A stretch of 56,404 nt of DNA from a virus. Location: positions 1 to 56,404 of the IMG/VR virus record IMGVR_UViG_3300043313_001319. One strand, 5' to 3'. Numbering within the stretch: the first letter of the stretch is position 1; each line of letters starts with the position of its first letter. The notes under the pieces were generated by a model. It had not been told where the DNA came from. It searched no databases and worked only from the letters and a program-made list of their open reading frames with translations. Position numbers and translations under genes: made by a program. This document shows positions 3,102-53,959 of the stretch, in pieces.

Positions 3102-3130
3102 ACGGTACCGAAACCTAGTGACTTGTCAAA
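3102..3130 (-). promoter_or_regulatory. Leaderless promoter with CTAGTGAC operator element
   Basis: On the minus strand: TTGACA (3124-3129), a 16-base spacer containing AGTCACTAGG, and TACCGT (3102-3107). The ATG of the beta-helix gene follows at 3095. The TGACNNGTCA core overlaps the -35 and also the stop codon of the DUF397-like gene upstream. Confidence 0.75.
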
Positions 3131-3287
3131 CGGTGTCGAAGTCGCCGGCCTTGACCGCGGTCACGAGCGCGTCCCACTCGTCGCGTGACACCAGCACGGA
3201 GCCGGCCTGCGATCGAAACACAATGAACCGGCTATCCCGCAGCGCCTGGACCCCGACGCAGGCGCTGGTGTCGCACCGGCCACGCAC
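3126..3287 (-). CDS. Second DUF397-like protein (short)
   Basis: This 53-residue frame starts at GTG 3287. It has the DUF397 order: a Cys-containing first strand (RCDTSACVGVQ), an RDSRF motif in place of RDSKD, and a terminal SRDEWDALVTAVKAGDFD that matches the usual DEWxAFxxGVRxGEFD ending. It lacks the N-terminal WRKSS region, so it is shorter than typical. No start codon other than GTG lies between the upstream in-frame stop and the domain; an AAGGGG sits about 15 bases before it. It follows the holin and precedes the beta-helix gene, giving a DUF397/beta-helix/DUF397 sandwich. Confidence 0.65.
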   Translation of the reverse strand: MRGRCDTSACVGVQALRDSRFIVFRSQAGSVLVSRDEWDALVTAVKAGDFDTV

Positions 3288-5006: not shown

Positions 5007-5036
5007 AGCGTAGCAACCGCTTGACGCGTCACGCAA
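5007..5036 (-). promoter_or_regulatory. Leaderless promoter of the lysis operon with TGACGCGTCA
   Basis: On the minus strand TTGCGT (5031-5036), an 18-base spacer and TACGCT (5007-5012) are followed after seven bases by the ATG at 4999. The spacer contains the perfect palindrome TGACGCGTCA (5022-5031), a variant of the phage-wide operator core. The element lies inside the 3' end of the glycosyltransferase gene. Confidence 0.6.
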
Positions 5037-6156
5037 TCGTCACGCGCTTCGATGCCGCCCCGGCACGCCCTCGCTGCAGGTCCAGGGCGTGCGCCCACGC
5101 TTCCATCCAACGCCACGCCGACGCCTCGTAGGTCAGGCCGTGCTCGACCACCGCCGCGCGGCCCACGAGAGACTGCGCCCGACGAAGCCCTCGGTCGCGA
5201 ACCAGTCGGCCGACCTCGCGGTACCAGTCGCCGGGCCCCTTGGCCATGCGACCGACCCCGGTCAGGCGCCAGAGCTTCTCATACTCGGCCCGCGGCGAGG
5301 CGACCCACGGCACGCCCAGAGCCATGTACTCGAGCGGCTTCAGCCAGCTCTTCGCGGCGTTGAAGGCAGTGTCTGCCAGCGGGGCGATGCCGACCCCCAT
5401 CGTGGCCACGGCGGCCGGCCAGTCGTCGAAGCCCACGTCGCCGGTGGTCTCGACATCGCCTTCGCCCGGCGCCAGGCCCAACGCTCGACGTAGGCCCTGG
5501 TCGTCGCGGTGCTGGCGGTAGTCGGGGCCGGCGCCCCAGTACGGCACACCTTCGCGGACCAGGCGCGCCACGGCCGGGCCCACCACGTTCAGGTCGGTCG
5601 GATGGGAGTGGACGGAGCCACCCCAGCCGATGGTGGCCTCGTCGCGGTGCGGCACGTCGAGGTACCGGGCCGGCACGCGGTTCTCCAGCACGACGCCGCG
5701 CCCGTGCGGGGCGTACGCCTTCAGTAGCGGCGGGGTCGAGACGGTGACCAGGGTGGCGTCGAGGCAGGCCTGTAGCGCGTTCTTGGCGGAGTGCAGCGGC
5801 GAGCCGCTGTCCTGATGCATGCCCCAGAAGGCGGGGTTGTTGGGGTCGATGCGTCGCAGGTCGTCGTCCATGTCGACGACGACGGCCACCCCGCGGCGGC
5901 GCATCTCCGGAATGCCCTGGCCCATGGTGGTCATGGCGACCCGCTGCAGCACGATGACGTCGGCGTCAGGCGGGAAAGTCAGCGAGGCTGGCAGCAGCCG
6001 GCCGGTCCGCGTGTCCACGCTCCCGCCGATGCCCTCGCGGTCGGCGGGCATCACGACCCGAACGTCATGCCCCTGCTCGCGCGCAGCTCGGCCAGGGAAG
6101 GCCAGACGATAGAACCCACATCCATAGGGGTCGGCGGGGTAGACGTAGACGATCAC
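5029..6156 (-). CDS. GT-B (GT4-like) glycosyltransferase
   Basis: The protein is 375 residues. The first half has Rossmann-like strands (MIVYVYP, DVRVVMPAD, ADVIVLQR, VAVVVDMDDD). The second half has a donor-site signature, with SWLKPLEYMALGVPWVASP near residues 280-300, including the conserved Glu and the Gly-Pro turn that position the nucleotide sugar. GxGIAPL precedes it, as in other GT4 enzymes. It would transfer a sugar from a nucleotide donor; the acceptor is unknown. It is the last large gene of the sugar cassette and its start overlaps the preceding stop by four bases (ATGA). No membrane helix is visible, so it acts in the cytoplasm. Confidence 0.82.
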   Translation of the reverse strand: MIVYVYPADPYGCGFYRLAFPGRAAREQGHDVRVVMPADREGIGGSVDTRTGRLLPASLTFPPDADVIVLQRVAMTTMGQGIPEMRRRGVAVVVDMDDDLRRIDPNNPAFWGMHQDSGSPLHSAKNALQACLDATLVTVSTPPLLKAYAPHGRGVVLENRVPARYLDVPHRDEATIGWGGSVHSHPTDLNVVGPAVARLVREGVPYWGAGPDYRQHRDDQGLRRALGLAPGEGDVETTGDVGFDDWPAAVATMGVGIAPLADTAFNAAKSWLKPLEYMALGVPWVASPRAEYEKLWRLTGVGRMAKGPGDWYREVGRLVRDRGLRRAQSLVGRAAVVEHGLTYEASAWRWMEAWAHALDLQRGRAGAASKRVTIA

Positions 6157-6500
6157 TTCGCTGGCGAGCTCGCGCGGCGCGCCATCGTCTCGGCCGTGAT
6201 CTTGTGATTATGCATGTGGATACTGCGGGCGGCATGCATGCCGCCCGCAGGCCAGTCACTGAAGCCACACACCTCGCAAGGTGCTAACTGGATCACTGCA
6301 TCGCCGGGCTGCGGCCAGTCGACGACGATCGACTGAGGAATAACCTGAAGGCCGTCGATCAGCACCTCATGGAACGCCGTCGGCGCCCCCACGGCGGCGA
6401 TGATCTCCCCGAACGCCTGGGCCGCCCTGACGACGTGAGCCGCCTCGGCCGGCGTGTAGCAGTTGCCCGGAGCCTGGATGCGCCAGACCTGCGTGCTCAT
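6153..6500 (-). CDS. Hypothetical protein in the sugar cassette (115 aa)
   Basis: ATG 6500 overlaps the stop of the glycosyltransferase at 6497 (ATGA). The protein has an N-terminal helical segment, a beta-rich centre, a CEVCGF cysteine pair near residue 75 and a His-rich tail (SIHMHNHK). A metal site is plausible. I recognise no family. Tight coupling to a glycosyltransferase on each side suggests an accessory role in the same pathway. Confidence 0.6.
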   Translation of the reverse strand: MSTQVWRIQAPGNCYTPAEAAHVVRAAQAFGEIIAAVGAPTAFHEVLIDGLQVIPQSIVVDWPQPGDAVIQLAPCEVCGFSDWPAGGMHAARSIHMHNHKITAETMARRASSPAK

Positions 6501-7141
6501 GCGACAGCATCCCCTCTGGTGCTCAGCCCTCCGGTGTTGCCAAGGGTCCCGTCTGGACGGATCGTGTGTCGGTAGAGCCAGGTTTTGCGGACCAGATGGC
6601 CGATCTTCCCGCCGGCCGCCTGGCACCCGAGCGTGAACGCGAAGTCCTCGCCAGAGTTGGCCTCGCCGCGGTCGAGGGATTTGAAGCCGACCGACTGGGC
6701 CAGCTCGGTGCGGACCAGGGTCGTAATGGTGGTCTCGATCGGGTTGGCCGGATCCCATGGGTTCAGGTAGTGCGACATGGGGAAGATCGGGTCGTCGTCG
6801 AGGACGCGACGGTTCCCGCCGCCGAAGTCCTGCATGACGCGGAACCAGGAGTAGACGAAGTCGAAGTCGTTGGCCTGGGCGAAGTTCAGCAGCTTGATCA
6901 GGTGGCCGGGCAACGGGATGTCGTCGCTGTCGATCGGGGCCACCCAGTCAGTGCGGGCCATTTCGAGCGCGCGCTGGCGCGTCACGGCCGCCCCGTCGCC
7001 GTCCAGGTCGATGGCGACGCAGTGGGCGTCGGGCAGCAGCTTCTGGGCGTGGATGCCCTGCAGGCATTCGGCGAACTGGCCGTTCGCGATCCGGGCGGGG
7101 TGAACGGGGGTGATGACGCTGATGGTCTGGCGGCGCTGCAT
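6497..7141 (-). CDS. GT-A (GT2-like) glycosyltransferase
   Basis: The protein is 214 residues. It starts ISVITPVHP, the typical first strand of GT2 enzymes, and has a metal-binding acidic motif in WVAPIDSDDIPLP (DxD near residue 72), preceded by an ARTDWVAP-type approach to the active site. GEDFAFTL near residue 178 fits the catalytic ED motif. At 214 residues it is a bare catalytic domain. It lies 12 bases after the DUF616-like gene and overlaps the next by four bases. Confidence 0.85.
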   Translation of the reverse strand: MQRRQTISVITPVHPARIANGQFAECLQGIHAQKLLPDAHCVAIDLDGDGAAVTRQRALEMARTDWVAPIDSDDIPLPGHLIKLLNFAQANDFDFVYSWFRVMQDFGGGNRRVLDDDPIFPMSHYLNPWDPANPIETTITTLVRTELAQSVGFKSLDRGEANSGEDFAFTLGCQAAGGKIGHLVRKTWLYRHTIRPDGTLGNTGGLSTRGDAVA

Positions 7142-7153
7142 CGCGCTGTCCTT

Positions 7154-7936
7154 TCAGGTTCCGTGCGGGTCGAGGGACCACATGGCCCAGGGCAGGTTGG
7201 CGTTCCAGCCCAGCCCGGGCACGATGGACTCATGTCGAGCGAATGACTCGGACAACAGAGCCTGAACCCGAAGAAGCGGCGGCAAGCTCAACTGGTCCTG
7301 ATGCGAATACATGACGTTGGCCCGCCACCACAGCTCGCCCAGATCGTTGACCATGTTCGTGTGCCGCCGGACCATGTGCCCGGTCGCGAACAGGCCCCAG
7401 CCCTCGGGGTGACTGCTGGCCCGAACCGCATCGATCTGACGCTGGAGAGCCTCGACGCTGTACCGACCAGCGCAGACCGCGGCGGTGTAGGCGTGCTCGG
7501 TGTAGACGCAGCTGCGCCACGGGTGGGCCATGAGCGACCACTCATCATCGCCCAGGGCTGCGACATTTCTGGCCACCCATTCGGGGCCGGCCATCGTGAT
7601 GCGCATGTTTCCGTCGACCCAGATCGACGCGTCGACTATCTGGGTGATGTCGCCCTGGAGTCGAGCCCAGTGCCAGGTGGCCTCGACGGGATGCGTCTTC
7701 CAGTACTTGTGAGCCAGCATCGGCGTGACGACCGCCGGGTCCCCGTTGGCGGGGTCGGCGGTGAAGCGGTCATATGGCGTCAGGTCGAAGACGACGGTCC
7801 AGCCGCCCGCGGCCGCCGACTCGGCGATCTGCTCGTTGTCGGTGAGCATGATGGCCGGGATGCCGAGGTCGGGCGGCAGCGGCTTCGCCGTGGCCTCGTA
7901 CGTGCCGTACACCGCGGAATACAACGCCAGCTTCAT
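7154..7936 (-). CDS. Glycosyltransferase-like protein (DUF616/TOD1 type)
   Basis: I chose ATG 7936, which overlaps the preceding stop by four bases (ATGA); the frame can be extended to 7984 but that adds an unrelated basic stretch. The 260-residue protein opens with YSAVYGTYEATAKP and has a TDN turn, a YWKTHP segment, then SIWVDGNMRI near residues 95-104, whose D-x-N resembles a nucleotide-sugar/metal site, and an H-P-W-RSCVYTEH motif. This order matches the DUF616/MUCI70-type glycosyltransferases found in bacterial polysaccharide loci. The donor and acceptor are unknown. Confidence 0.65.
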   Translation of the reverse strand: MKLALYSAVYGTYEATAKPLPPDLGIPAIMLTDNEQIAESAAAGGWTVVFDLTPYDRFTADPANGDPAVVTPMLAHKYWKTHPVEATWHWARLQGDITQIVDASIWVDGNMRITMAGPEWVARNVAALGDDEWSLMAHPWRSCVYTEHAYTAAVCAGRYSVEALQRQIDAVRASSHPEGWGLFATGHMVRRHTNMVNDLGELWWRANVMYSHQDQLSLPPLLRVQALLSESFARHESIVPGLGWNANLPWAMWSLDPHGT

Positions 7937-8130
7937 GCGACGCCCCAGTCCGCGCGTTCGGGCTCGCGACAGAGTGGCTGACACGGCGATGAGCCCGGCT
8001 CGACCCCTGACCCGTCACACGCGACACACTCGCCGCCGCGGTCGTCTTCGCCGGACCCGAGGCAGCACCAGCAGGAACCGCGCTCGTCGTTCAGCGTGTA
8101 GAGCGTGCCCGGCAGAATGGGCTCACTCAC
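7933..8130 (-). CDS. DnaJ-type zinc-knuckle small protein
   Basis: This 65-residue protein has two CxxCxGxG-type knuckles, CWCCLGSG (residues 20-27) and CVACDGSG (residues 35-42), as in half of a DnaJ zinc domain; similar small proteins occur in many actinophages. It starts at GTG 8130 overlapping the epimerase stop (GTGA) and ends on the start of the next gene (ATGA), so it is translated as part of the cassette. It may bind protein or act as a chaperone-like factor; the role is unproven. Confidence 0.7.
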   Translation of the reverse strand: MSEPILPGTLYTLNDERGSCWCCLGSGEDDRGGECVACDGSGVEPGSSPCQPLCREPERADWGVA

Positions 8131-9011
8131 GGCCGGAGACCCGAGTGGTACTCCTCGCCGAACGGCGCACCGCGGTACGACTCGACGGTCTCGCGCAGCG
8201 CCCCGGTCCAGAGCTCGCCGCCGTAGATGCCGCGGGCCATGTCGCGCGGGTGCCAGTCCAGCAGGTCCCAGCCCCGACCGGTGGCGGCCACGTTGGTCGG
8301 CGTCTCGCCGATGCGCATGGGCTCATATTCGACGCCGGCGGTCGAGCCGGTGATCTTCAGGACTTCCTCTGCGATGTCCTTGACGGTAACCTCGATGCCC
8401 AGGCCGCCGTCGAACACCTCGTCGTTGCCGAAGTTGCAGGCGTCGACGAGCATGCGCGCCACGACGCTGACCGGCACCGGATCCACCAGAGCCGACCCGT
8501 CCCCCCAGATCGGGATGGGCTGGTTGTTCCAGGCGGCGATGGAGAACGTCGGGCCGAACTTGCGGGGATGGCCGGGGCCATACGCCTGGCCGGGCCCGTG
8601 CGCGTTGTAGGCGATCACGTGCGAGCTGCGCAGACGGCCGGCCGCGGTCATGGCCGACGTGATGCGGTGGGCGCCAACCTTGGTCGCGCAGTAGATCGAC
8701 GGGAAGACGTCGGGCACCAGGATGCCGACGTAGTTGGCGTCGTTCTCGCTGCACCATTTGGCGACGCGGTATGACCCGAGGACGTTCTTTTCGATGGCGT
8801 CCTCGATGGTCTCGAAGAGCTCCATGGTGCCGAGCACGCCGGCCAGGTGAATGACCGCGTCGGGCGCGAAGTCGTCCATGGCGTCGAGCGAGCCCAGAAT
8901 GTCGTTGCCCTCGCGCTTGTCGAAGAACGCGACGTCGTGGCCAGCCCGGTCCGCCCAGTCGGCGACGTGCGAGCCGATGAACCCGCGCCCCCCACTCACC
9001 ATGATTCTCAT
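8127..9011 (-). CDS. NAD-dependent nucleotide-sugar epimerase/dehydratase (SDR)
   Basis: The protein is 294 residues from ATG 9011. The N terminus MVSGGRGFIGSHVADW is the extended-SDR dinucleotide-binding motif (GxxGFIG). VIHLAGV is the next conserved strand, and the catalytic Tyr-Lys pair is in SIYCATKVGAH (YxxxK). DGGLGIEVTVKDIAE is typical of the substrate half in UDP-glucose or GDP-mannose epimerases and dehydratases. It probably supplies a modified nucleotide sugar to the neighbouring glycosyltransferases. The start overlaps the methyltransferase stop by four bases. Confidence 0.9.
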   Translation of the reverse strand: MRIMVSGGRGFIGSHVADWADRAGHDVAFFDKREGNDILGSLDAMDDFAPDAVIHLAGVLGTMELFETIEDAIEKNVLGSYRVAKWCSENDANYVGILVPDVFPSIYCATKVGAHRITSAMTAAGRLRSSHVIAYNAHGPGQAYGPGHPRKFGPTFSIAAWNNQPIPIWGDGSALVDPVPVSVVARMLVDACNFGNDEVFDGGLGIEVTVKDIAEEVLKITGSTAGVEYEPMRIGETPTNVAATGRGWDLLDWHPRDMARGIYGGELWTGALRETVESYRGAPFGEEYHSGLRP

Positions 9012-9703
9012 TTGCCGAAGTGTCCCTTCTCGGTCAGTGCGCGGATCTCCGCGAGGGCGGTGTGCGCGTCGAGGGCGGCCGAGCGGCCCAGGATGGCGTC
9101 GGGCACCAGATGGCGCGGCATCCACGTCTCGACGATCTTGTCATAGGCGCGGTCGAGGACGACGTTGCGCGGGTCGAGGCCGGTCACGACGAGCGCGCCG
9201 GTCGGCGAGACGTCCACGAGCAGCTGGTCGAGGTCGGGGCGGTGCTCGGACAGGATGGCCATGAGCTTGAACACGTCGCCGGTCCAGTCGCCGGGCGGCT
9301 GCACGCGCCAGGCGATGTCCTGGCTGTAGGGCAGCACGTCATCGAACACGACGACCGTGCCCAGGCCGGCATGGCGCTCGATGTGGATGAAGTCGCGCAG
9401 GGCGTCTTCGAACAGATGCGAGCCGTCGATGAAGGCTAAGTCGACGGTCGGGCGCTCGCACGACGTGCACGCGTAGTACGCCTCGATGGTGCCTTCCTCG
9501 AGCTTCTGGTTGCCGCGGCGGTACTGCTGCTGCACGGCGGCCAGGTCGATGTCGATGCCGATGGCCACCCCCGCCGCCTCGGCCAGGGCCAGCGACGCGC
9601 CGGTCTGCACGCCGACCTCGAGGTAGGTCTGCGGCTTCAGAATGGCGTGCAGACCGTCAAGGAACTGGTACCGGGTCAGGCTCGGGGGCGGCAGAGGCTT
9701 CAT
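9008..9703 (-). CDS. Class I SAM-dependent methyltransferase
   Basis: ATG 9703 gives 231 residues and leaves eight bases after a TATCGT -10; an alternative ATG 9733 lies inside the operator palindrome. YLEVGVQTGASLA is motif I of the SAM-binding fold, IGIDID is motif II, LAFIDGSHLFEDALRDF matches the Methyltransf_24 family, and VVVFDDVLPYSQD follows. In sugar cassettes this family often O-methylates a sugar, which is the most likely role here. It overlaps the epimerase by four bases. Confidence 0.82.
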   Translation of the reverse strand: MKPLPPPSLTRYQFLDGLHAILKPQTYLEVGVQTGASLALAEAAGVAIGIDIDLAAVQQQYRRGNQKLEEGTIEAYYACTSCERPTVDLAFIDGSHLFEDALRDFIHIERHAGLGTVVVFDDVLPYSQDIAWRVQPPGDWTGDVFKLMAILSEHRPDLDQLLVDVSPTGALVVTGLDPRNVVLDRAYDKIVETWMPRHLVPDAILGRSAALDAHTALAEIRALTEKGHFGK

Positions 9704-9711
9704 GGTCGCCG

Positions 9712-9740
9712 ACGATATCAGAGCGCTTGACATGTCACTA
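9712..9740 (-). promoter_or_regulatory. Promoter/operator upstream of the methyltransferase
   Basis: CTTGACATGTCACTAG reads on the + strand at 9726-9741, with palindrome TGACATGTCA. On the minus strand TATCGT (9712-9717) ends eight bases before ATG 9703, and GTGACA (9733-9738) lies 15 bases upstream of it, short for a -35. The element is in the opposite orientation to that at 3102-3130. Confidence 0.55.
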
Positions 9741-9831
9741 GCCTGACCTGCGCGAACGGGATTGCTAGGTTTGTTAACTGGCCTTTCGAGCGCTTGCTTG
9801 GTTGCACGTCCTTTTCGGTCCACCGACCGAA

Positions 9832-10533
9832 CTACCACGGCCGCCAGCCGTTGTACTTGCCGACGAAGCGCTGGGAGTCGATGGCGACCTGAGCGGCCAT
9901 GTGCCCGGTCCAGCCGTCCGGGATGCGGTTCGGCACGGGGTGGTCGCCGATGAGCGCCATCCCCCCGGATTGACGAGCCTGGATATCTAGGTCTGTGTCG
10001 CCGAACCAATAGTGGAACTGCTCGTCGGCGCGGACCGGGCTGATCGGGTCAATGATCCAGGCCCACCCTGGCATGCGTCCGACCAGATCGCTGTCGGGCG
10101 CAGTCTTCACCCGGGGCGGGCCGATCCAGCCGAACGGCTCCGGGGCGGACGCGCCGATGACCGCGCCGGTGTCCGCCATGGCCTTGGCCACCGCGTCGAA
10201 CCAGCCCGGCGGGGGCGGGGCGTCGTCGCAGAGCACCGCGACGAGCGGCGAGTCGAACACGTCGGAGTCCTGGTTGCCGTGGACCGTCAGCGCCATCTCG
10301 ATGCCCATGTTCCAGAGCTTTGAGAGGTTCGGCGGCTGGTCCGGGACGGACACGACCGCCGTCTTCCACGTGCCCAGGATCCGCGTGCCGGCATGGAATT
10401 CGCGGAAGTTGACCGGCGGCGTGCTGGCGTTGTCGATGATGATGACCATGTCGACCTGCGGCCCGATGGCGCACCACGTCTCGCAGAGCAGCTCGGGCCG
10501 GTCGTGGGTGAGAATCACTGCGTAGCGGTTCAT
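9832..10533 (-). CDS. GT2-like glycosyltransferase heading the sugar cassette
   Basis: ATG 10533 gives 233 residues and sits seven bases after a TAGGGT -10. AVILTHDRPELL begins the GT-A fold, VIIIDNAST is the second strand, and VAVLCDDAPPPPGWFDAV (near residues 105-122) carries the DD metal motif. FGDTDLDIQAR near residue 185 fits the GT2 ED-like active-site segment. It is the first gene of the leftward cassette that ends at 5029; a 130-base gap with an operator separates it from the methyltransferase. Confidence 0.85.
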   Translation of the reverse strand: MNRYAVILTHDRPELLCETWCAIGPQVDMVIIIDNASTPPVNFREFHAGTRILGTWKTAVVSVPDQPPNLSKLWNMGIEMALTVHGNQDSDVFDSPLVAVLCDDAPPPPGWFDAVAKAMADTGAVIGASAPEPFGWIGPPRVKTAPDSDLVGRMPGWAWIIDPISPVRADEQFHYWFGDTDLDIQARQSGGMALIGDHPVPNRIPDGWTGHMAAQVAIDSQRFVGKYNGWRPW

Positions 10534-10540
10534 GCCGGCC

Positions 10541-10573
10541 ACCCTACCCTCGACCACTTGACATGTCACTAGG
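10541..10573 (-). promoter_or_regulatory. Leaderless promoter/operator of the sugar cassette
   Basis: On the minus strand GTGACA (10564-10569), a 17-base spacer and TAGGGT (10541-10546) are followed after seven bases by the ATG at 10533. The operator ACTTGACATGTCACTAGG occupies 10556-10573 on the + strand, with a perfect TGACATGTCA core. Confidence 0.72.
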
Positions 10574-10580
10574 CCAATCG

Positions 10581-11273
10581 TCAGATGGTCTTGACGGCCG
10601 GATAGAGGGCAGCGGGACCGGCGTAGACGATCTCCAGGTAGCGCGTCTGATCGAAGTTGCCGAGCATGGTGACCGTGCCGCCGAAGCCCTGCAGGGTGAG
10701 CAGCATAGAAACGGTCGTGTCGACGGTGAAGGCGAAGTGCCAGGCCGCCCCACACCACTGGGAGAAGCCGGCCGTGACCGCCATCTGGTAGGCCGAGACG
10801 TTGACGATCGTGCCCGCCACGGTGCCGGGCCGAACCCGGTAGAGCGCGGTGGCGTTGCTCGCGCTGCTGCTGGTGTCCCCGTACCAGGTGGCTCGGTAGA
10901 CCTGGCCGGCCAGGAATGTGTAGGCCGGGGCGGTGAATACCGGGACCTCGACCGTCACCGGGCCCGCGTCGGCCCGGGCCGCGACGTACGAGACCACGGA
11001 GCCGACCGCAGGCACCAGCGCGGCGACGCCGCAGATGAAGTTGCCGCTGGGCGGCACCACGTCCACATACACGCGCTGGCCGACAGTTACCGCCCCGATC
11101 ATCGACACCATGCCGATGGCCTCGGTGTCGCCGTCGAGAGTGACTGTGATGGGGTCGGCCGTGGAGACCGTGCCGATGGCGAGTTGCCAGGTCAGGCCCA
11201 GGCGCCGAGAGTTCTCCTGAACGGCCAGGATGCGGGCGGCCTCGTCGTTGGCGCCGGCGCCCTCGTTGCTCAT
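10581..11273 (-). CDS. Putative virion-associated minor tail protein
   Basis: The 230-residue protein starts at ATG 11273, overlapping the preceding stop by four bases. The N-terminal part has a small beta-barrel-like region (VTLDGDTEAIGMVSM, VGQRVYVDVVPPSGNF), as in proteins at the distal end of siphovirus tails. The C-terminal half is beta-rich with Thr/Ala/Gly repeats and could be a receptor-facing domain. No enzyme motif is visible. Position as last gene of the tail operon supports a minor tail or fibre role. Confidence 0.6.
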   Translation of the reverse strand: MSNEGAGANDEAARILAVQENSRRLGLTWQLAIGTVSTADPITVTLDGDTEAIGMVSMIGAVTVGQRVYVDVVPPSGNFICGVAALVPAVGSVVSYVAARADAGPVTVEVPVFTAPAYTFLAGQVYRATWYGDTSSSASNATALYRVRPGTVAGTIVNVSAYQMAVTAGFSQWCGAAWHFAFTVDTTVSMLLTLQGFGGTVTMLGNFDQTRYLEIVYAGPAALYPAVKTI

Positions 11274-12391
11274 GAGTACGACCTTCGTAGAACGTGGCTC
11301 ATGGCCTCGCCTGCGACCAGCGGCATCGACCAGGACAGCTCGAGCCAGTTGAAGCCCTGCCAGCGGATCACGTTGTAGCCGTCGTGGCGCGGGTCGGCTG
11401 GCGTGGCCAGCACCACCTGCTCCGCCGCGGTGGCACGTTCGGCGATGCCACGGGCGACGGCGGCGGCCTGGCCGGAGTCGGACAGCTGCAGGTTGAAGGT
11501 CTTGGCCCGCACGTAGCCGATGTTGGGGATCGAGTTGGGGGCGTTGACGGGCACATCGGCCACCCCCACCACCGGCTCTTCCGAGTTGGCGGCCGCGTTG
11601 GAGATGACGACGAAGCGGTTCGGCGCGGTGAGCAGCTCGTCGGTCTCGACGATGTCCGAACGGATGACCCGGTAGCCGGCGTCGAAGTCGATGTCGGGCA
11701 CCTGGTTGGCCGGGTCGAAGGTGCGCTCGAAACGCAGGACGCCGTTGTTGTCGAACCAGGGCGACCAGTAGTCGCCGGCCACTGACAGCGCCTCGAGCAC
11801 CTGGCCGCGCGTCGTGCCGATGCCCCACGAGTCGGCCGAGAGGTACGACGACTGGTCAGAGAGAAACGTGATCGGCAGGCCGGTCAGCACGTTGGTCAGG
11901 ACGGTGACGACGGGCAGCCCGATGCCGCTGACCCCTGCGGTCAGTTCAGTGTCGATCAGGAACATCTCGTCGTTGAGTGTGGGGCGGGCCAGCCGGCCGC
12001 CGGTCGAGAGCGTGCGCGGGTTGTCCGCCCAGGTGTAGCGACCCAGCGGCCAGTCGCCGTCGGGGCGGTCCGGGTTGGGCGCGCCGGGGATGGTCATGAA
12101 GACGAGGACGCGATCGGTCAACGCGTTGACCGCGGCGGTGTCGGCTCGCCCCAGCGACAGATTCAGCGTGCGCTTCACCGTCATCGACGTGTCATGGGTC
12201 AGGCTGGCGCCGCGGATCGGCGCGAGGTCGCCGAGGTGCTCGCCGGACACGCCATTGACGAGCTCGAAGCGGAACGTGTACTGCATCTGGCCGACCGCTG
12301 CGGACAGGTCCAGCTGCGGGGCCCGGGTGTCCGTGACGAGCAGCCGGCCGCCCGGCCACGCCGACCCGATGCCCGGCCCGGGGCTGGTCAC
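11270..12391 (-). CDS. Minor tail protein (baseplate/hub type)
   Basis: The 373-residue protein has no enzyme motif. It opens with beta strands such as YTFRFELVNGVSGEHLGDLAPIR, then a Thr/Val-rich central region. The segment ending in RFERTFDP, preceded by YWSPWFDNNGVL, resembles the hub-type minor tail proteins encoded after the large tip protein in actinophages. Both ends overlap neighbours by four bases (ATGA), so it is translated with the tail-tip genes. The assignment rests mostly on position. Confidence 0.65.
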   Translation of the reverse strand: MTSPGPGIGSAWPGGRLLVTDTRAPQLDLSAAVGQMQYTFRFELVNGVSGEHLGDLAPIRGASLTHDTSMTVKRTLNLSLGRADTAAVNALTDRVLVFMTIPGAPNPDRPDGDWPLGRYTWADNPRTLSTGGRLARPTLNDEMFLIDTELTAGVSGIGLPVVTVLTNVLTGLPITFLSDQSSYLSADSWGIGTTRGQVLEALSVAGDYWSPWFDNNGVLRFERTFDPANQVPDIDFDAGYRVIRSDIVETDELLTAPNRFVVISNAAANSEEPVVGVADVPVNAPNSIPNIGYVRAKTFNLQLSDSGQAAAVARGIAERATAAEQVVLATPADPRHDGYNVIRWQGFNWLELSWSMPLVAGEAMSHVLRRSYS

Positions 12392-18667: not shown

Positions 18668-18710
18668 AATCTACACCACTTGACAAGTCACTAGGTTTCG
18701 CCGCTACGAT
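18668..18710. promoter_or_regulatory. Divergent leaderless promoter region with operator
   Basis: On the + strand TTGACA (18680-18685), a 19-base spacer and TACGAT (18705-18710) precede ATG 18717. On the minus strand TAGATT (18668-18673) precedes ATG 18660 by seven bases. The shared element ACTTGACAAGTCACTAGG lies between. A single bound repressor could block both directions. Confidence 0.68.
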
Positions 18711-19874: not shown

Positions 19875-21164
19875 ATGTCAGTCACCCTGATCAGAGGCGA
19901 TGCACGCAGTCTTCCGCTGGCCGATGCCAGCGTCGATCTCATCGTCACTAGCCCGCCCTACTTCGCCCTGCGCTCCTACACTGACGGCGGCCAGCACTAC
20001 GCGGGCCAGGTCGGCAGCGAGGCTACGCCGGCCGAGTTCATCGCCGCCCTGATCGCGTGCACCAGAGAGTGGATGCGCGTCCTCAAGCCGTCCGGCTCGA
20101 TCTGGGTTAATCTGGGCGACAAGTACGCGAACGATGCCAAATGGGGCGGGAGTACGGGGGGAAAGCACGCTCCGGGGCTGCATGGTGCGACGGGCATCGG
20201 CCGAACCAAGATGAAGACCGGCATACCGGCCAAGTCATTGATGCTGCTGCCCGAGCGGTACCGCATCGCAGCCGTCGATGATCTTGGCCTGATCGCGCGG
20301 GCCGTGCTGATCTGGTCGAAGCCCAACGGCCTGCCCGAGTCGGTCACCGACCGCGTTCGACGCAGCCATGAAGACTGGGTGCACCTGACCAAACAGCCGC
20401 GCTACTTCGCCGCGGTCGACGAAATCCGCGAGACCTACGCACCGAAAACTGCGGCTCGGTACCGAGCCGGCTACGGCACTCCGGCCGCCGCCATCGTGGC
20501 CGGCCAGACTCGCAACGGAGTTCTGCGCCACGATGGCGGCGGCCCGCCCGGTGTCAACCCGCTCGGCAAGTTGCCCGGGTCGGTGTGGGAGGTGGCCAGC
20601 CAGCCCCTGTCCGTGCCGAAGGAACTCGGCGTCGATCACTTCGCGGCGTTCCCGATGGAGTGGCCACGGCGGCTCATCCTGGGCTGGTCGCCCTCTGGCA
20701 TCTGCGTTGAATGCGGCGAAGGTCGACGGCCGTTGGCACGCCGTGATCCGATCGACCCGCAGCACTTGGCATCCAACTCGCGGCAAAACACTCACGAACG
20801 GCTGTCCATTCGTGGCGTGTCCGCGTCGAGCATCCTGCGCACAGGGCTGCAATCTGGTCAGTCACCTGCGACTCACATCACCGGCTATGCGTGCGACTGC
20901 GCCGAGCCGACTGCGGCGACTCGTCCCGCGGCGGTTCTCGACCCGTTCGGCGGGACCGGTACGACGGCTATGGTGGCCGAGGCGCTCGGGCGGCGCGGCA
21001 TCTCCGTCGACATGTCCGCCGACTACTGTCGGCTGGCGCAGTGGCGCACCACCGATCCGAAGCAGATGGAGCGCGCATCTCGTCCGGCGAAGCCGCGCCC
21101 AGCCGCCGCGGTTGAGCCCGTGCCGCACACCGCGTCAGACTGGCTCGCGCACTTCGGGCTCTAA
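19875..21164 (+). CDS. DNA methyltransferase (class beta, N4-C/N6-A)
   Basis: The enzyme is 429 residues. The catalytic motif IV is TSPPYFALRSY at residues 29-39 (SPPY type), before DPFGGTGTTAMVAEALGRRG (SAM-binding motif I, near residues 350-369), the order of class beta enzymes. A four-Cys segment (CVECGEG and later YACDCAEP) is often seen between these motifs in actinophage enzymes. The target sequence is unknown. It has a ribosome site (AGAGGA) and lies alone on the + strand inside the leftward virion block, with its end overlapping the connector stop by four bases. No restriction partner is adjacent. Confidence 0.9.
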   Translation: MSVTLIRGDARSLPLADASVDLIVTSPPYFALRSYTDGGQHYAGQVGSEATPAEFIAALIACTREWMRVLKPSGSIWVNLGDKYANDAKWGGSTGGKHAPGLHGATGIGRTKMKTGIPAKSLMLLPERYRIAAVDDLGLIARAVLIWSKPNGLPESVTDRVRRSHEDWVHLTKQPRYFAAVDEIRETYAPKTAARYRAGYGTPAAAIVAGQTRNGVLRHDGGGPPGVNPLGKLPGSVWEVASQPLSVPKELGVDHFAAFPMEWPRRLILGWSPSGICVECGEGRRPLARRDPIDPQHLASNSRQNTHERLSIRGVSASSILRTGLQSGQSPATHITGYACDCAEPTAATRPAAVLDPFGGTGTTAMVAEALGRRGISVDMSADYCRLAQWRTTDPKQMERASRPAKPRPAAAVEPVPHTASDWLAHFGL

Positions 21165-22222
21165 TTCGGGCAGAGGCAGGACTGCACGCCGACGAAGAAC
21201 TCAGTCTCGACCCCGGCGCAGCCGCCGAGTTCGCCGACCGTCGTCGACCCGCCGATGACCCACTCCGACACCCAGGACGGGTTGGCCAAATTCGCCGCGC
21301 TCAGACAGCAGGCGATGGCCTGGCGGACGGCGGTCCGATCGTTCTCCAGCGTGACCGCGGCGGCCAGCTCGGCGGAACATGTCGGCGGAGCCCCGTCCTG
21401 GGCCATGGCCGGCACGCAGCGGGTCACCGACACGACGGCGCGGACGATCTCGTAGCGGTGGTTGCACTTACGCCACGACGCGTTGAGCGGCTGCGGGAAC
21501 CGCTCCGACCCGTAGACCTCGCGGATGGCCAGAGCCACCTGGCCCGGGTGAGAGCATGCCGCGCTGGGCACGCACGGGCCGCAGTTGTCCCACGGAATGG
21601 CCTGGGTGGGCAGCAGCAGGCACTGACGGCACGGCGCGCCGGCGGGCGTCTGCTCGAGCGCCTCGATGACGCAGTTGCCGACCCCGGTCACGACGTTGAT
21701 GAAGCCCGGCGCGGTCAGGTTGATGAAGAAACCCTCGGTCGGCGGGCAGGGCTCGCACGGCTCGGTGGCGGTGAAGTTGACGTCGACCGCGTACGCGTCC
21801 TGGAAGAAGTTGGCCGGGAACTGCAGCGCGCCGGCGGCCTGGACCCGGCCGCCCTGATTCATCACGGTGAACGGGGAGTTGTAGACGTAGACGTCGTTGA
21901 CCGCGTTGGGATACCAGGCGATGCGGTTGTTCTGGTAGCAGGCCGCGGTGTAGATCGTGCCGGGCGTGAGGCTGACCGAGGCGGCCAGCGGGATGAGCGA
22001 CCACGCACCGGCGGGCAGGCCTGCGGTGGCCGGCGCGGTGGCGAGCAGGGCCTGGGTCTGGGTGTCGTAGAGCCCGGGCGTGACGGCGGCGGCCGACCCG
22101 GTGGGCTGGTACCACCAGATGCCGTCGACGTCGCCGGTGGTGTTGACGGTGAAGTCGAAGCCGGTGACGCCGCCGAAGTTGCCCTCGTTGGGCGGGATGG
22201 CGCCGGCGAATACGGTGCTCAT
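21161..22222 (-). CDS. Head-tail connector with N-terminal DUF4082-like domain
   Basis: The protein is 353 residues. Residues 1-150 show a DUF4082-like beta-sandwich pattern (DGIWWYQPTGSAA, GLYDTQTQALLATA, LTPGTIYTAACYQNNRI), a decoration domain also found in bacterial surface proteins. After a CEPCPP linker the C-terminal 200 residues (LNASWRKCNHRYEIVRAVV and many cysteines) look like an actinophage head-tail connector of the portal-to-neck region. The position between adaptor and neck gene agrees. Cys content is unusually high. Confidence 0.6.
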   Translation of the reverse strand: MSTVFAGAIPPNEGNFGGVTGFDFTVNTTGDVDGIWWYQPTGSAAAVTPGLYDTQTQALLATAPATAGLPAGAWSLIPLAASVSLTPGTIYTAACYQNNRIAWYPNAVNDVYVYNSPFTVMNQGGRVQAAGALQFPANFFQDAYAVDVNFTATEPCEPCPPTEGFFINLTAPGFINVVTGVGNCVIEALEQTPAGAPCRQCLLLPTQAIPWDNCGPCVPSAACSHPGQVALAIREVYGSERFPQPLNASWRKCNHRYEIVRAVVSVTRCVPAMAQDGAPPTCSAELAAAVTLENDRTAVRQAIACCLSAANLANPSWVSEWVIGGSTTVGELGGCAGVETEFFVGVQSCLCPN

Positions 22223-23181: not shown

Positions 23182-23868
23182 TCACGGGTAGTCGGCCAGG
23201 AAGCAGTTGGCCGGCGGCGGAGCCGTGTTCTCGAGGTTGTACAGGTGATGATCACCCAGCACCACCTGGTTGGCACCGAGGTACGTGGCGCCGGCCGTCC
23301 AGAGCGGGCTGGCGTCGTACGTGTTGCCCATGATCTGCAGGATGTTGGCGTCGAGGTTGATGTTGAAGTCGCCGATCTTCCCGTCGGCGATGTGCGGCCA
23401 CGCGTGGTACGGGTAGTAGACCGTTCCGGACGAGTCGCACGCCTGCGGCGGGGCCTGCCAGATCTCCAGCGAGAAGTGCGACGCCGTCACGTTCGACCAG
23501 GTACCGCGGGCGAAGCCGGTGCCCGTCGGCGACTGCGTGGCGGTCAGCAGCCGGCCCCCGATGGTGAGAGGGATCAGCGCCGGATTCCAGACGCAGAAGT
23601 TCATGGTGATTTCGTCGTTGGTGTACTGGTCCGGGATCTTGAAGTTCTGGCAGAGCGTCCCGTTGGCCTTGCGCGTGATGACCCGGTCGCCAGTGTCGTA
23701 CTGCGGGCTGGGCGTGACCTCAGTGAAGCCGTCCATGACCAGCATGCCCGAGCCGGACTGCGGCGTCGGCGAGCCCGTGCCGGTGAGCGGCACCCCGCAG
23801 GCGTTGAGCTTGATGATGCGCATGACCAGACCCTCGATCGGGCTGGCGCAGACCAGTGCGGTACTCAT
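23182..23868 (-). CDS. Putative major tail tube protein
   Basis: The 228-residue protein is beta-rich and soluble: GVPLTGTGSPTPQSGSGMLV, YDTGDRVITRKANG, then NFCVWNPALIPLTIGGRLL. This matches the pattern of actinophage major tail proteins, including a conserved W-NPAL-P segment. It lies next to the capsid genes and upstream of the adaptor. The order here (capsid, this gene, adaptor, connector, neck) is slightly unusual for a tail tube gene, which usually follows the neck, so a head decoration protein is the alternative. Confidence 0.6.
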   Translation of the reverse strand: MSTALVCASPIEGLVMRIIKLNACGVPLTGTGSPTPQSGSGMLVMDGFTEVTPSPQYDTGDRVITRKANGTLCQNFKIPDQYTNDEITMNFCVWNPALIPLTIGGRLLTATQSPTGTGFARGTWSNVTASHFSLEIWQAPPQACDSSGTVYYPYHAWPHIADGKIGDFNINLDANILQIMGNTYDASPLWTAGATYLGANQVVLGDHHLYNLENTAPPPANCFLADYP

Positions 23869-24868: not shown

Positions 24869-26728
24869 TCAGCAGCAGGCGGTCAGGTCGGCCGCGCCGG
24901 TGGTGCCGTCCGGGCAGATGTTGACGGTGTACTCGCGCACCTCGTGACCGAACTTCGCGATCAGGTGGCACTCTTCCATCCACGCCGCGGTGAAGTCGTT
25001 CGTCTCGTTGAGCGTGGAGTCGCGCACGACGCCCAGGTCCAGGCTCATGCCGTTGCCCCGGGCGACCGTGCCGGCCGCGTACATCAGGCCCTTGAGCGTG
25101 CTCGGGTACTGGGTGATGCCGCCGGTGGTGATCGCACCGGGCTGGCCGGCCGCGCGCACCTGGTAGTCCTGGACGAACTGCACGCGGATGTTGCGCACGT
25201 CGAACCAGCGCGCGATCTCGTCGTCCGGGATGCGCATGAAGTCGGAGACGCCGGTCCGCTTGGCCAGGTCGGCCCGGACGACGCCCTTGGCCCACTCGGG
25301 CAGGACCCACTCGATGACGTCGGTGGCGGCCATGCCGTACTTGGCCCGGTAGTCCCAGCCGGACAACTCGGCGATGTTGAGCAGCGGAGCCGCCGCGCCA
25401 GAGCCGGTCGCCGTGCAGCCCGCGTTGGCGACGGCCAGGCCGGCGATTGCGGAGATGTAGCGGGCGTTGGCCGCGTGGTAGTGGGCGGCCATGAGCAGCC
25501 GCAGGAAGTTGGCGGTCGACTCCGGCCACGCGTTGTCGGCCAGGTTGCCGGCGGTCAGGCAGATGCCGTAGCACTCCAGCCGCACGTCGCTCATGGTCGA
25601 ACATGGCACGCGAATGCACGGCTTGGTCGGCGAGCCGGTCACCGCGAGGATGTCGCTGCCCTCAGTCCAGAGCCACGGGACGGTGGCGTTGCTGAACGCG
25701 GTGTACCACGGCAGGGCCGGGGAGAACGTGTCCGCGAGGCTCGGCGACACGGGGAAGTTGATGCCGCCCCGCTCGACGCCGAACGTCGGCAGGTCGATCA
25801 TGCCGGACTGGGCGGCGATGTTGAAGAAGTCGTAGCGGATCTGACTCGGCGCACACCAGCCGCCGGCCGCGACGATCGTCTCGAAGGCCGAGGCCGAGCG
25901 GCTGCGCTCGAGCTTGGCCATGTACTCCTCGACCGCGGCGGTCGAGGACTTGTCCGACAGGACAGTGTCGAACTGGTTGCGGATCGAGGCGATCATCGTG
26001 CCGCCGTACGGGGCGTCGTGGCGCCGGGCCGCGTGCCGGTAGGCGTTGTCGTTGGGCAGCGTCGGGCGGAAGCCGGCCTGGTCGGTCAGGTTCCGCGCGC
26101 TCACCTCAGCGAGGTCGGTGAGCTGGCGGAACTGGGAGATCTGCGAGCCCATGGCGAGCTGACCGGCCGGGTTGGCCGCGGTGGCGACCATGGCGAGCTC
26201 GGCGGCCGGGGCCTGGGTGACGGCGGCCGGCGCGGACTGGCGCGCGGCAGACAGGCTCGGGTTCAGACGGTTACGGGCGCCGGACAGGCCGCCCGTCTCG
26301 CGGGACGCGGTGGTCGCTCCGCCGGTCGGCCGGGCCGACGCGGTCACGAGCTGCGGCGCGGCCGGCGCGGCACCCGCTGGGGCCTGCGCGTCGAGCACCT
26401 CGCCTTCGAGGGCCGGCTCGGTGGCCGTGTCGCTCTCGACCTCGGCCGGTGCGGCCAGGTCGTTGGCGAAGTCGTCGAACTGGCGGTCCAGTTCGGCCTG
26501 CTCGGTGGCGAGCTCGGACTGGCGGGCGCCGAGAGTGTTGCGGGCCTCGCGCAGTTCGCCCAGGCGGGGCAGGTCGGCCGGGTTGCGGTTGCCGAGCAGC
26601 GTGTCCATTTCGGACGTGGCCGACTCGTGCAGGGCTGTCAGCTCTTCGACGGTGAGCGTCGTAAGGTCCGCGGGCAGGGCGAAGGGGGCACCCGAATCGC
26701 CGGTGCCCGGGGCGTTGGTCTTCGGCAT
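24869..26728 (-). CDS. Major capsid protein (hexamer-type) with N-terminal scaffold region
   Basis: ATG 26728 gives 619 residues with a GGGG ribosome site seven bases before it. Residues 1-130 are Ala/Glu-rich coiled coil (a delta/scaffold domain removed during maturation). After a flexible segment, the HK97-like shell domain runs from about residue 290 (SAFETIVAAGGWCAPSQI, ITTGGITQYPSTLKGLMYAAGTVARG) to a C terminus ending in TACC. The protease encoded upstream at 26947 would cleave the scaffold. The next gene encodes a possible pentamer partner. Confidence 0.85.
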   Translation of the reverse strand: MPKTNAPGTGDSGAPFALPADLTTLTVEELTALHESATSEMDTLLGNRNPADLPRLGELREARNTLGARQSELATEQAELDRQFDDFANDLAAPAEVESDTATEPALEGEVLDAQAPAGAAPAAPQLVTASARPTGGATTASRETGGLSGARNRLNPSLSAARQSAPAAVTQAPAAELAMVATAANPAGQLAMGSQISQFRQLTDLAEVSARNLTDQAGFRPTLPNDNAYRHAARRHDAPYGGTMIASIRNQFDTVLSDKSSTAAVEEYMAKLERSRSASAFETIVAAGGWCAPSQIRYDFFNIAAQSGMIDLPTFGVERGGINFPVSPSLADTFSPALPWYTAFSNATVPWLWTEGSDILAVTGSPTKPCIRVPCSTMSDVRLECYGICLTAGNLADNAWPESTANFLRLLMAAHYHAANARYISAIAGLAVANAGCTATGSGAAAPLLNIAELSGWDYRAKYGMAATDVIEWVLPEWAKGVVRADLAKRTGVSDFMRIPDDEIARWFDVRNIRVQFVQDYQVRAAGQPGAITTGGITQYPSTLKGLMYAAGTVARGNGMSLDLGVVRDSTLNETNDFTAAWMEECHLIAKFGHEVREYTVNICPDGTTGAADLTACC

Positions 26729-38711: not shown

Positions 38712-38748
38712 ACCGTACTCAGTAACCTAGTGACACGTCAAGTACGCT
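38712..38748. promoter_or_regulatory. Divergent leaderless promoter with operator
   Basis: Minus strand: TTGACG (38736-38741), an 18-base spacer and TACGGT (38712-38717), with ATG 38704 seven bases further. Plus strand: TACGCT (38743-38748), with ATG 38755 six bases further, but no good -35. The element CCTAGTGACACGTCAAG covers 38726-38742. Confidence 0.7.
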
Positions 38749-46536: not shown

Positions 46537-46565
46537 ACCCTACGAACGACCTAGTGACATGTCAA
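46537..46565 (-). promoter_or_regulatory. Leaderless promoter/operator
   Basis: On the minus strand TTGACA (46560-46565), a 17-base spacer and TAGGGT (46537-46542) are followed after seven bases by ATG 46529. The element CTTGACATGTCACTAGG lies across -35 and spacer and also encodes the last residues (LDMSLG) of the zinc-rich gene upstream. Confidence 0.78.
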
Positions 46566-46776
46566 GTAGTCGAAGGGCCTGCGCCCGCAGCCCGTTGATC
46601 GTCCGCAGGTTGCGCCGAGCGCAGCAGCCTTCCCCGACCGATGCCAGATCCCACCGGCCCCAGCACGGGCATCCCCAGGGCTCGTCCTTCCCGCAATCCC
46701 GCCCCCGGGCCTCATGGCACCGGCACGGGTAAACCGAGCCCAGAGGCACCCGCGCGGCCACCCAGGTGCCGATCAT
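46540..46776 (-). CDS. Cys-rich small protein (78 aa)
   Basis: ATG 46776 overlaps the preceding stop (ATGA). The 78 residues contain seven Cys (YPCRCHEARGRDCGK, CPCWG, CCARR), probably two zinc sites, and a C-terminal helix that ends inside the operator. No family is recognised, but the pattern resembles small actinophage regulators. It is coupled to the wHTH-like gene. Confidence 0.65.
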   Translation of the reverse strand: MIGTWVAARVPLGSVYPCRCHEARGRDCGKDEPWGCPCWGRWDLASVGEGCCARRNLRTINGLRAQALRLLDMSLGRS

Positions 46777-50041: not shown

Positions 50042-50078
50042 ACACTACTTGACGTGTCACTAGGTGGTCAACTACCGT
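50042..50078. promoter_or_regulatory. Overlapping divergent promoters with operator in the shared spacer
   Basis: Plus: TTGACG (50049-50054), 18 bases, TACCGT (50073-50078), ATG 50087. Minus: TTGACC (50066-50071), 18 bases, TAGTGT (50042-50047), ATG 50034. The operator ACTTGACGTGTCACTAGG lies at 50047-50064, covering part of both spacers. Both genes are leaderless. Confidence 0.8.
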
Positions 50079-50763: not shown

Positions 50764-50771
50764 GTGACCAC

Positions 50772-50801
50772 TTGACATGTCACTAGGTCTCTCGGTAGCG
50801 T
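50772..50801 (+). promoter_or_regulatory. Leaderless promoter/operator of the nuclease gene
   Basis: TTGACA (50772-50777), an 18-base spacer and TAGCGT (50796-50801) precede GTG 50810 by eight bases. The element ACTTGACATGTCACTAGG lies at 50770-50787. Confidence 0.8.
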
Positions 50802-53160: not shown

Positions 53161-53429
53161 GCGATAAGCGCAAGCGCGAGGCGCCAGCAGCAATTCATCC
53201 CATCTGCGTCCAGCTCCACCAGATGCGCCTCGACCTTCGCCTGACCCAGGACGAGGTGTCCCGCCGGTCCGGAGTCTGGCAGTCCTCGATCAGCGACTAC
53301 GAGACCGGCAAGTCGCAGCCAACCCTGGATAGCCTCGACGCCTGGGCGTCCGCGTTAGGCCTCAGACATCACTTGACACTTCACTTCACGGCCGTTGGTG
53401 AGCGCGATGAAGCCCTGCCCGTTCTGTGA
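53157..53429 (+). CDS. XRE-family HTH regulator in the early operon
   Basis: GTG 53157 overlaps the preceding stop and gives 90 residues. The HTH is LHQMRLDLRLTQDEVSRRSG followed by VWQSSISDYETGKSQPTL, a clear XRE/Cro-type pattern with the Q-S-S-I recognition helix. It could be a Cro-like or immunity regulator; the phage has no integrase, so a lytic/lysogenic role is unproven. The 3' end overlaps the HIT gene start by 23 bases. Confidence 0.82.
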   Translation: MSDKRKREAPAAIHPICVQLHQMRLDLRLTQDEVSRRSGVWQSSISDYETGKSQPTLDSLDAWASALGLRHHLTLHFTAVGERDEALPVL

Positions 53430-53766
53430 GATCTCCCGCGATTTCCGCAAGGCGATAACGCCACTGATTCAGATCACCCGCAATGTCCTGATCATCGAGC
53501 CGCGCAACCCGGTCACGCCCGGGCACGCGCTCGTCATCTCGCGGGTCCATGTGGCCAACTTCGCCCTTGACCCGGTCGTCTTCGCCGCGCTGGCCGGCGA
53601 AGCGGCCGAGTTCGTTCGCAGCCTGCGTGAGCCGAGCGACTGGAATCTCATCACGTCGATGGGGCCCAGCGCCACGCAGACCATCGAGCACCTGCACATT
53701 CACCTGGTACCCCGCCGCGAAGGCGACGGGCTCCGTCTCCCATGGAGCCCGTCAGATGGCCAGTGA
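53407..53766 (+). CDS. HIT-family protein
   Basis: ATG 53407 gives 119 residues. The pattern MKPCPFCEI (zinc Cys pair), PGHALVISRVHV and the terminal active-site HLHIHLVPR (H-x-H-x-H) is that of HIT nucleotide hydrolases or transferases. The substrate could be AMP-lysine-type or other nucleotides, perhaps to counter host stress nucleotides. The upstream GTG 53395 is less likely. Confidence 0.88.
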   Translation: MKPCPFCEISRDFRKAITPLIQITRNVLIIEPRNPVTPGHALVISRVHVANFALDPVVFAALAGEAAEFVRSLREPSDWNLITSMGPSATQTIEHLHIHLVPRREGDGLRLPWSPSDGQ

Positions 53767-53944
53767 AATCCTCGACGCCATCGGGCTGCCGTGGCTGGAC
53801 TACGACCTCAGCGTCTACCACTGCCCGCGCTGCCACGGCGTCGTGCGGATCTACGACAGCGCCAGCACGACCGATGACGTCGAGGCCATCCTGGCGTGGC
53901 ACAACGAGGTGCACCACGCGCCAGAGCGCTTGACACGTCACTAG
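53756..53944 (+). CDS. Small CxxC protein ending in an operator (62 aa)
   Basis: ATG 53756 overlaps the HIT gene by 11 bases. The motif YHCPRCHGVVRIYDS is a zinc knuckle, and the rest is helical (DDVEAILAWHNEVHH). The final codons (LTRH, stop) are part of the promoter/operator at 53929-53959, and its TAG is inside the element. Function unknown. Confidence 0.65.
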   Translation: MASEILDAIGLPWLDYDLSVYHCPRCHGVVRIYDSASTTDDVEAILAWHNEVHHAPERLTRH

Positions 53945-53959
53945 GTTTTCAAGTAGCGT
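53930..53959 (+). promoter_or_regulatory. Promoter/operator with a leader
   Basis: TTGACA (53930-53935), an 18-base spacer and TAGCGT (53954-53959) lie 43 bases before ATG 54003, which has an AAAGG ribosome site. So unlike most others it is not leaderless. The element CTTGACACGTCACTAGG spans 53929-53945. Confidence 0.78.

Follow-up and report, generated by a model that had tools for sequence, protein, structure and literature searches.

A candidate glycotype locus with an exchangeable interior in a lineage of siphoviruses

We analysed a 56.4-kb virus record of a soil phage (69% GC; hereafter the window) and found that six sugar genes on its minus strand, designated GT2A, MT, SDR, TOD1, GT2B and GT4 and accompanied by two small Cys/His proteins, are not a chance collection but a set that recurs in dozens of related phages while the locus is nearly absent from cultured ones. 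To our knowledge, phage virion glycosylation has been reported in just a handful of mycobacteriophages, with no natural purpose established for it outside animals. The probable product of the locus is a glycan, short, methylated and specific to the locus type, attached to a virion protein that most likely belongs to the distal tail. We also advance, as a tentative idea, that the window represents a lineage of uncultivated actinobacterial siphoviruses with a true glycotype locus, in which a tail-linked glycosyltransferase pair is combined with an interior that recombination swaps as a block. This interior, with its transferase, sugar-modifying and methylating functions, would come in at least two exclusive kinds and give particles serotype-like glycans, and its SDR would function although the usual Ser/Thr is missing.

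A compact sugar-gene locus between tail and lysis genes

The gene content is that of a siphovirus, with terminase, portal, capsid, major tail and tape measure genes; the window has no tyrosine integrase and shows no near-match at the DNA level among phages. Within its virion block, a DNA N6/N4 methylase gene (19875-21164) runs on the opposite (+) strand, overlapping by 4 bases the end of the gene at 21161-22222. The sugar locus begins straight after two minus-strand tail genes downstream of the tape measure: tail373 (11270..12391; phrog_1887 tail protein, E = 3e-10) and tail230 (10581..11273; no Pfam or PHROG match), the last tail gene ahead of the locus. An Amidase_2 endolysin follows the locus, in keeping with the initial annotation, which had placed the cassette inside the virion/lysis region. 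Near the lysis genes lie two DUF397 proteins (1770-1964 and 3126-3287, minus strand, of which the second narrowly misses the Pfam cut-off), members of a family typical of actinobacterial genomes. Codon-position GC is coding-like for most cassette open reading frames, and all six sugar genes are under purifying selection (dN/dS 0.14-0.67). The tight coupling noted earlier is borne out by five 4-base overlaps (MT-SDR, SDR-CxxC65, CxxC65-TOD1, GT2B-CH115 and CH115-GT4) and a TOD1-GT2B gap of 12 bases, all after correction of the cassette start codons.

That annotation had also named one GT4-like and two GT2-like glycosyltransferases together with DUF616-like, SDR and methyltransferase genes, and family searches or, for GT2A, a predicted GT-A fold bear these out. 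The GT4-like glycosyltransferase (5029..6156, minus strand, as are all cassette genes) matches PF13692 (E = 1e-5, just under gathering) and phrog_7162 (glycosyltransferase, E = 3e-31), and the family-2 glycosyltransferase GT2B (6497..7141) matches PF00535 (E = 1e-10) and phrog_14775 (E = 8e-27); these two form the constant part of the locus. The TOD1/MUCI70-like glycosyltransferase (7154..7936) matches PF04765 (E = 3e-5), which we take to be the former DUF616, and is predicted with good confidence to have a GT-A fold (pLDDT 83.5), and its best Foldseek matches are GT-A enzymes, among them xyloside xylosyltransferase and alpha-1,3-galactosyltransferase, although the TM-scores are low (~0.4). 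SDR (8127..9011), a short-loop extended SDR resembling nucleotide-sugar epimerases and dehydratases, matches PF01370 (E = 3e-21) and phrog_540. MT (9008..9703), a Methyltransf_24-type SAM methyltransferase, matches PF13578 (E = 3e-9) and conserves the motif EVGVQxG; PDB profile searches with GT4 and MT returned no matches. GT2A (9832..10533), the marker of the exchangeable block, matches no Pfam or PHROG family and carries invariant DD and DxD-like motifs; its structural model (pLDDT 86.6) predicts a GT-A-fold glycosyltransferase, with Foldseek returning GT-A enzymes at TM-scores of ~0.6, led by TarS, RmlT and polypeptide GalNAc-transferases and with TarP also among the nearest folds. By hydropathy, none of the cassette enzymes has a clear membrane segment. 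Three small proteins with Cys/His knuckles had been claimed and two were found by translation: CxxC65 (7933..8130), a Cys-rich protein of 65 aa, and CH115 (6153..6500), a CxxC/His-rich protein of 115 aa. Neither has a Pfam match or is kept across the family, CxxC65 being present, among the relatives compared, only in the near-identical contig L008/L014 and CH115 having relatives only in L010 and L011 besides L008.

Judged by their alignment, the cassette SDRs appear to constitute a short-loop group without the usual catalytic Ser/Thr. Nearly all members retain the N-terminal NAD-binding glycine motif (GGxGFIG/FLG) and YxATK, in agreement with the glycine motif and YxxxK of GalE-like extended SDRs. 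By sequence, the catalytic Ser/Thr is absent: the segment bearing the Ser/Thr of the Ser/Thr-Tyr-Lys triad is missing from 42 of 42 aligned SDRs, where a short MP/VP/LP motif replaces it ahead of YxATK or a variant. The SDRs of the cultured actinophages Magritte and Satis (L254 and L255) likewise appear short in the Ser/Thr segment, and the trait may therefore extend past this lineage. The Magritte SDR lies beside glycosyltransferases, just ahead of the terminase.

The gene set is conserved and adjoins tail genes

A search for similar gene order, which had been proposed as a check on the cassette, recovered close relatives on six viral contigs (55-100% MT protein identity) and more distant ones down to about 30-40% identity. 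Of 68 records that carry GT2A, 33 have complete loci, and 29 of these show precisely the order GT2A-MT-SDR-TOD1-GT2B; in 67 of the 68, SDR and TOD1 either both occur or are both missing. The set was collected partly via TOD1 and may therefore be enriched. This conservation, the lack of which had been named as part of what would speak against the cassette, strongly supports a dedicated glycan-synthesis set. The near-constant association of SDR with TOD1 suggests that the two act as donor-forming enzyme and transferase. Neither SDR nor TOD1 is present in L012 and L013, whose MT no longer has some residues of the SAM site, a decay that would be expected if MT serves the same sugar as SDR and TOD1. 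Other features are more fluid: GT4 stands ahead of GT2A in some phages and past GT2B in others, and small accessory genes come and go within the locus. The window encodes a nucleotide-binding HIT-domain protein at 53407-53766, well away from the cassette, and homologues of it occupy the GT2A-MT gap in two relatives (L009:7328-7660 and L032:1836-2153).

We then used tail373 alone as a search handle in IMG/VR viral contigs, which avoids selection on the sugar genes. GT4 and GT2B were found downstream of tail373 in 58 of the 60 loci with at least 6 kb of downstream sequence, a proportion that may be inflated because the tail373 profile was built from loci that carry the module and because some contigs nearly duplicate one another. 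The two loci without GT4 and GT2B (L229 and L231) are sisters on the tail tree. A tblastn search found tail373 in no cultured phage. The module also occurs in prophages of Micromonospora (L164 among them), adjoining a tape measure gene, and of Streptomyces, adjoining terminase and portal genes, which makes an actinomycete the probable host. In some prophages the module adjoins the terminase and not the tail (L172), and a search run without a positive control did not find tail373 in the module-bearing Micromonospora and S. caniscabiei genomes, suggesting that the module is not confined to a single kind of tail.

Two exclusive types are exchanged at the same position

Besides GT4 and GT2B, the loci carry at most one of two mutually exclusive sets. 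The TOD1 type (GT2A, MT, SDR and TOD1), to which the window belongs, was found in 27 of the 59 loci of the tree set, and a type defined by a C-methyltransferase of Methyltransf_13/23/14 architecture in 18; none had both and 14 had neither, with type calls resting on HMM searches and not on a quick gene caller that missed some genes. The exclusion is significant by Fisher's test (P = 1e-6, kinship ignored). A further cluster, 'c2', proved to be an artefact of reverse-strand open reading frames over GT2A and was ignored.

The types have been interchanged repeatedly, and GT2A moves with the type. On quick trees with SH-aLRT support only, we counted 11-12 type changes for tail373, 9 for GT4, 8 for GT2B and 2 for GT2A, with at least 6-8 of the changes on the tail373 tree forced by well-supported branches. 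Best hits were of the same type for GT2A in 43/43 cases, as against 31/45 for GT2B, 32/45 for GT4 and 26/45 for tail373, and an independent-pairs test, although small, agreed (0 the same way and 5-6 the opposite way, of 8; P of about 0.06). The few type changes on the GT2A tree compared with the many on that of tail373 indicate that GT2A and the interior are exchanged as a unit, and the tree and best-hit counts together indicate that GT4 and GT2B stay with the tail. In alignments of tail230, a conserved N-terminus is followed by a divergent C-terminus. This protein is a candidate acceptor, but its C-terminus tracks the type only weakly (27 of 38, compared with 19 expected). The C-termini of the capsid and tail tube proteins (24869-26728 and 23182-23868), read by eye, have no clear Ser/Thr-rich tail.

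Comparison with known glycosylation systems

According to PMC12363180, which cites Freeman et al. 2023, phage-encoded glycosyltransferases modify mycobacteriophage capsid and tail tube; virion glycosylation is reported for Che8, Corndog and Myrna. Our locus resembles that system in having phage-encoded glycosyltransferases (recognised by Pfam and PHROG matches for GT4, GT2B and TOD1 and by GT-A folds for TOD1 and GT2A), in its occurrence in phages of Actinomycetota and in its proposed virion target. It differs in its larger set, which includes an SDR and a methyltransferase, in its split into constant and exchangeable parts and in its fixed place behind tail genes. No Mycobacterium phage was among the matches listed for GT2A, GT2B, TOD1, MT and GT4 in a tblastn search of 50,697 phage records (E 1e-5). 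Those tblastn listings give no sign of sequence kinship to Che8 gp110, Corndog gp38 or the Myrna glycosyltransferase. Among Streptomyces phages, KimJongPhill has homologues of both GT2A and GT2B, and Zuko, the nearest cultured phage to carry both and one grown in the laboratory on S. griseofuscus ATCC 23916, has them flanking a methyltransferase (gp106-108, glycosyltransferase-methyltransferase-glycosyltransferase); unlike in the window, the Zuko genes have no SDR or TOD1 between the glycosyltransferases and lie near the genome end, away from tail genes.

Bacterial O-antigen and capsule loci have constant flanks and a variable interior, and our locus is like them in combining conserved transferases with interchangeable interior sets. 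It differs in being phage-borne and beside tail genes, and Pfam scans of the window proteins, many small ones of which have no assignment, recognised no flippase, polymerase or ligase. The same scans recognised none of the membrane-bound GtrA, GtrB or Gtr families, setting the locus apart from the prophage Gtr serotype-conversion operons, in which phage-encoded glycosyltransferases create glycan types. Serotype conversion of this kind is also mentioned in PMC12619734.

Proposed function and alternative explanations

Enzyme identity is shown here at the level of family or fold, and we infer the acceptor (that it is a virion protein, and which one), the donor sugars, the order of reactions and the benefit. 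The glycan would be made in the cytoplasm of an infected actinobacterium, where soluble GT4 and GT2B would provide the constant, tail-linked part, and GT2A, MT, SDR and TOD1 the exchangeable, type-specific part. The SDR would act on a nucleotide sugar to convert it, transfer of sugars would fall to TOD1 and GT2A, and methylation to MT; a methylated sugar, suggested previously, fits the presence of the methyltransferase. Because relatives carry the C-methyltransferase set in the same place, phages may have glycan types comparable to the serotypes of bacteria, and the benefit could be masking or altered adsorption.

The initial annotation left the role between virion glycosylation and modification of the host surface. 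The tail linkage, the soluble enzymes and the lack of a recognised flippase or polymerase lead us to favour a virion acceptor. Less in line with this reading are the weak tracking of type by the tail230 C-terminus, the major capsid and tail proteins, in which no obvious Ser/Thr-rich C-terminus is visible by eye, prophages such as L172 with the module beside the terminase, and the small size of the independent-pairs test. Alternatively, the target could be a surface glycan or wall polymer of the host, altered in the course of infection or lysogeny, so that a changed receptor excludes other phages or stops virions from sticking to debris. Wall-teichoic-acid glycosyltransferases act on the host surface, and the solved folds nearest to GT2A include the teichoic-acid enzymes TarS, TarP and RmlT; the module is also carried by prophages, and type swapping could mirror host receptor types. 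However, similarity at the level of the GT-A fold is unspecific, and the set is linked to the tail. Its enzymes show no clear membrane segment, and Pfam scans of the window proteins recognised no GtrA/GtrB-like membrane enzyme, flippase or polymerase. We therefore regard a host-surface role as the less likely of the two suggested.

The coming and going of small accessory genes and the position of GT4, before GT2A or after GT2B depending on the phage, would also suit separate accessory genes gathered in a permissive gap between tail and lysis genes, with no joint product. The near-invariant GT2A-MT-SDR-TOD1-GT2B order, the all-or-none behaviour of SDR and TOD1, the mutually exclusive types with their linked exchange of GT2A and the short translational overlaps all speak against such an assembly, which we consider very improbable. 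Hypermodification of phage DNA with sugars, as a protection against restriction, has a precedent in virus-encoded glycosyltransferases (Pyle et al. 2024, cited in PMC12619734), and the window also contains two DNA methylases. Nevertheless, Pfam scans of the window proteins, some of which had no matches, recognised no pyrimidine hydroxymethylase or thymidylate-synthase-like family, and the set is linked to tail genes and not to replication genes, making a role in DNA modification the most remote of these explanations.

If the locus does glycosylate virions, its constant and repeatedly swapped parts would imply that phage glycans in soil are under diversifying selection. The locus would also be a source of phage enzymes that act on methylated sugars and of a group of SDRs whose mechanism may be altered.

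Palindromes and operator-type sites

A perfect palindrome of 28 bp lies inside the CH115 gene (6223-6250), and a perfect palindrome of 70 bp occupies the same GT2B-GT4 slot in L009 (L009:11941-12010). These palindromes between GT2B and GT4 may mark a recombination or regulatory site, and the long one in L009 could be an assembly artefact.

The 17-base site CCTAGTGACRYGTCAAG has 11 matches in the window at up to 3 mismatches, compared with 0.3 expected. An exact match lies ahead of GT2A (10557..10573, minus strand) and another match ahead of MT (9726..9742, minus strand), each overlapping promoter-like elements. Operator-type promoters had previously been placed at 9712 and 10541; putative operator sites are indeed present at both genes, and those two positions are the downstream ends of the -10-like boxes before MT and GT2A, respectively. 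The GT2A site is also found ahead of GT2A in L009, and the site before MT has a counterpart at the corresponding position in L009, L010, L011 and L013. Across the window, sites at 3114-3130, 9726-9742, 10557-10573, 18679-18695, 38726-38742, 46550-46566, 50048-50064, 50771-50787 and 53929-53945 lie over promoter-like elements, some apparently divergent and many right before start codons, and as putative operators they may define a phage-wide regulon. L009 has a perfectly symmetric copy of the site, which suggests a dimeric regulator.
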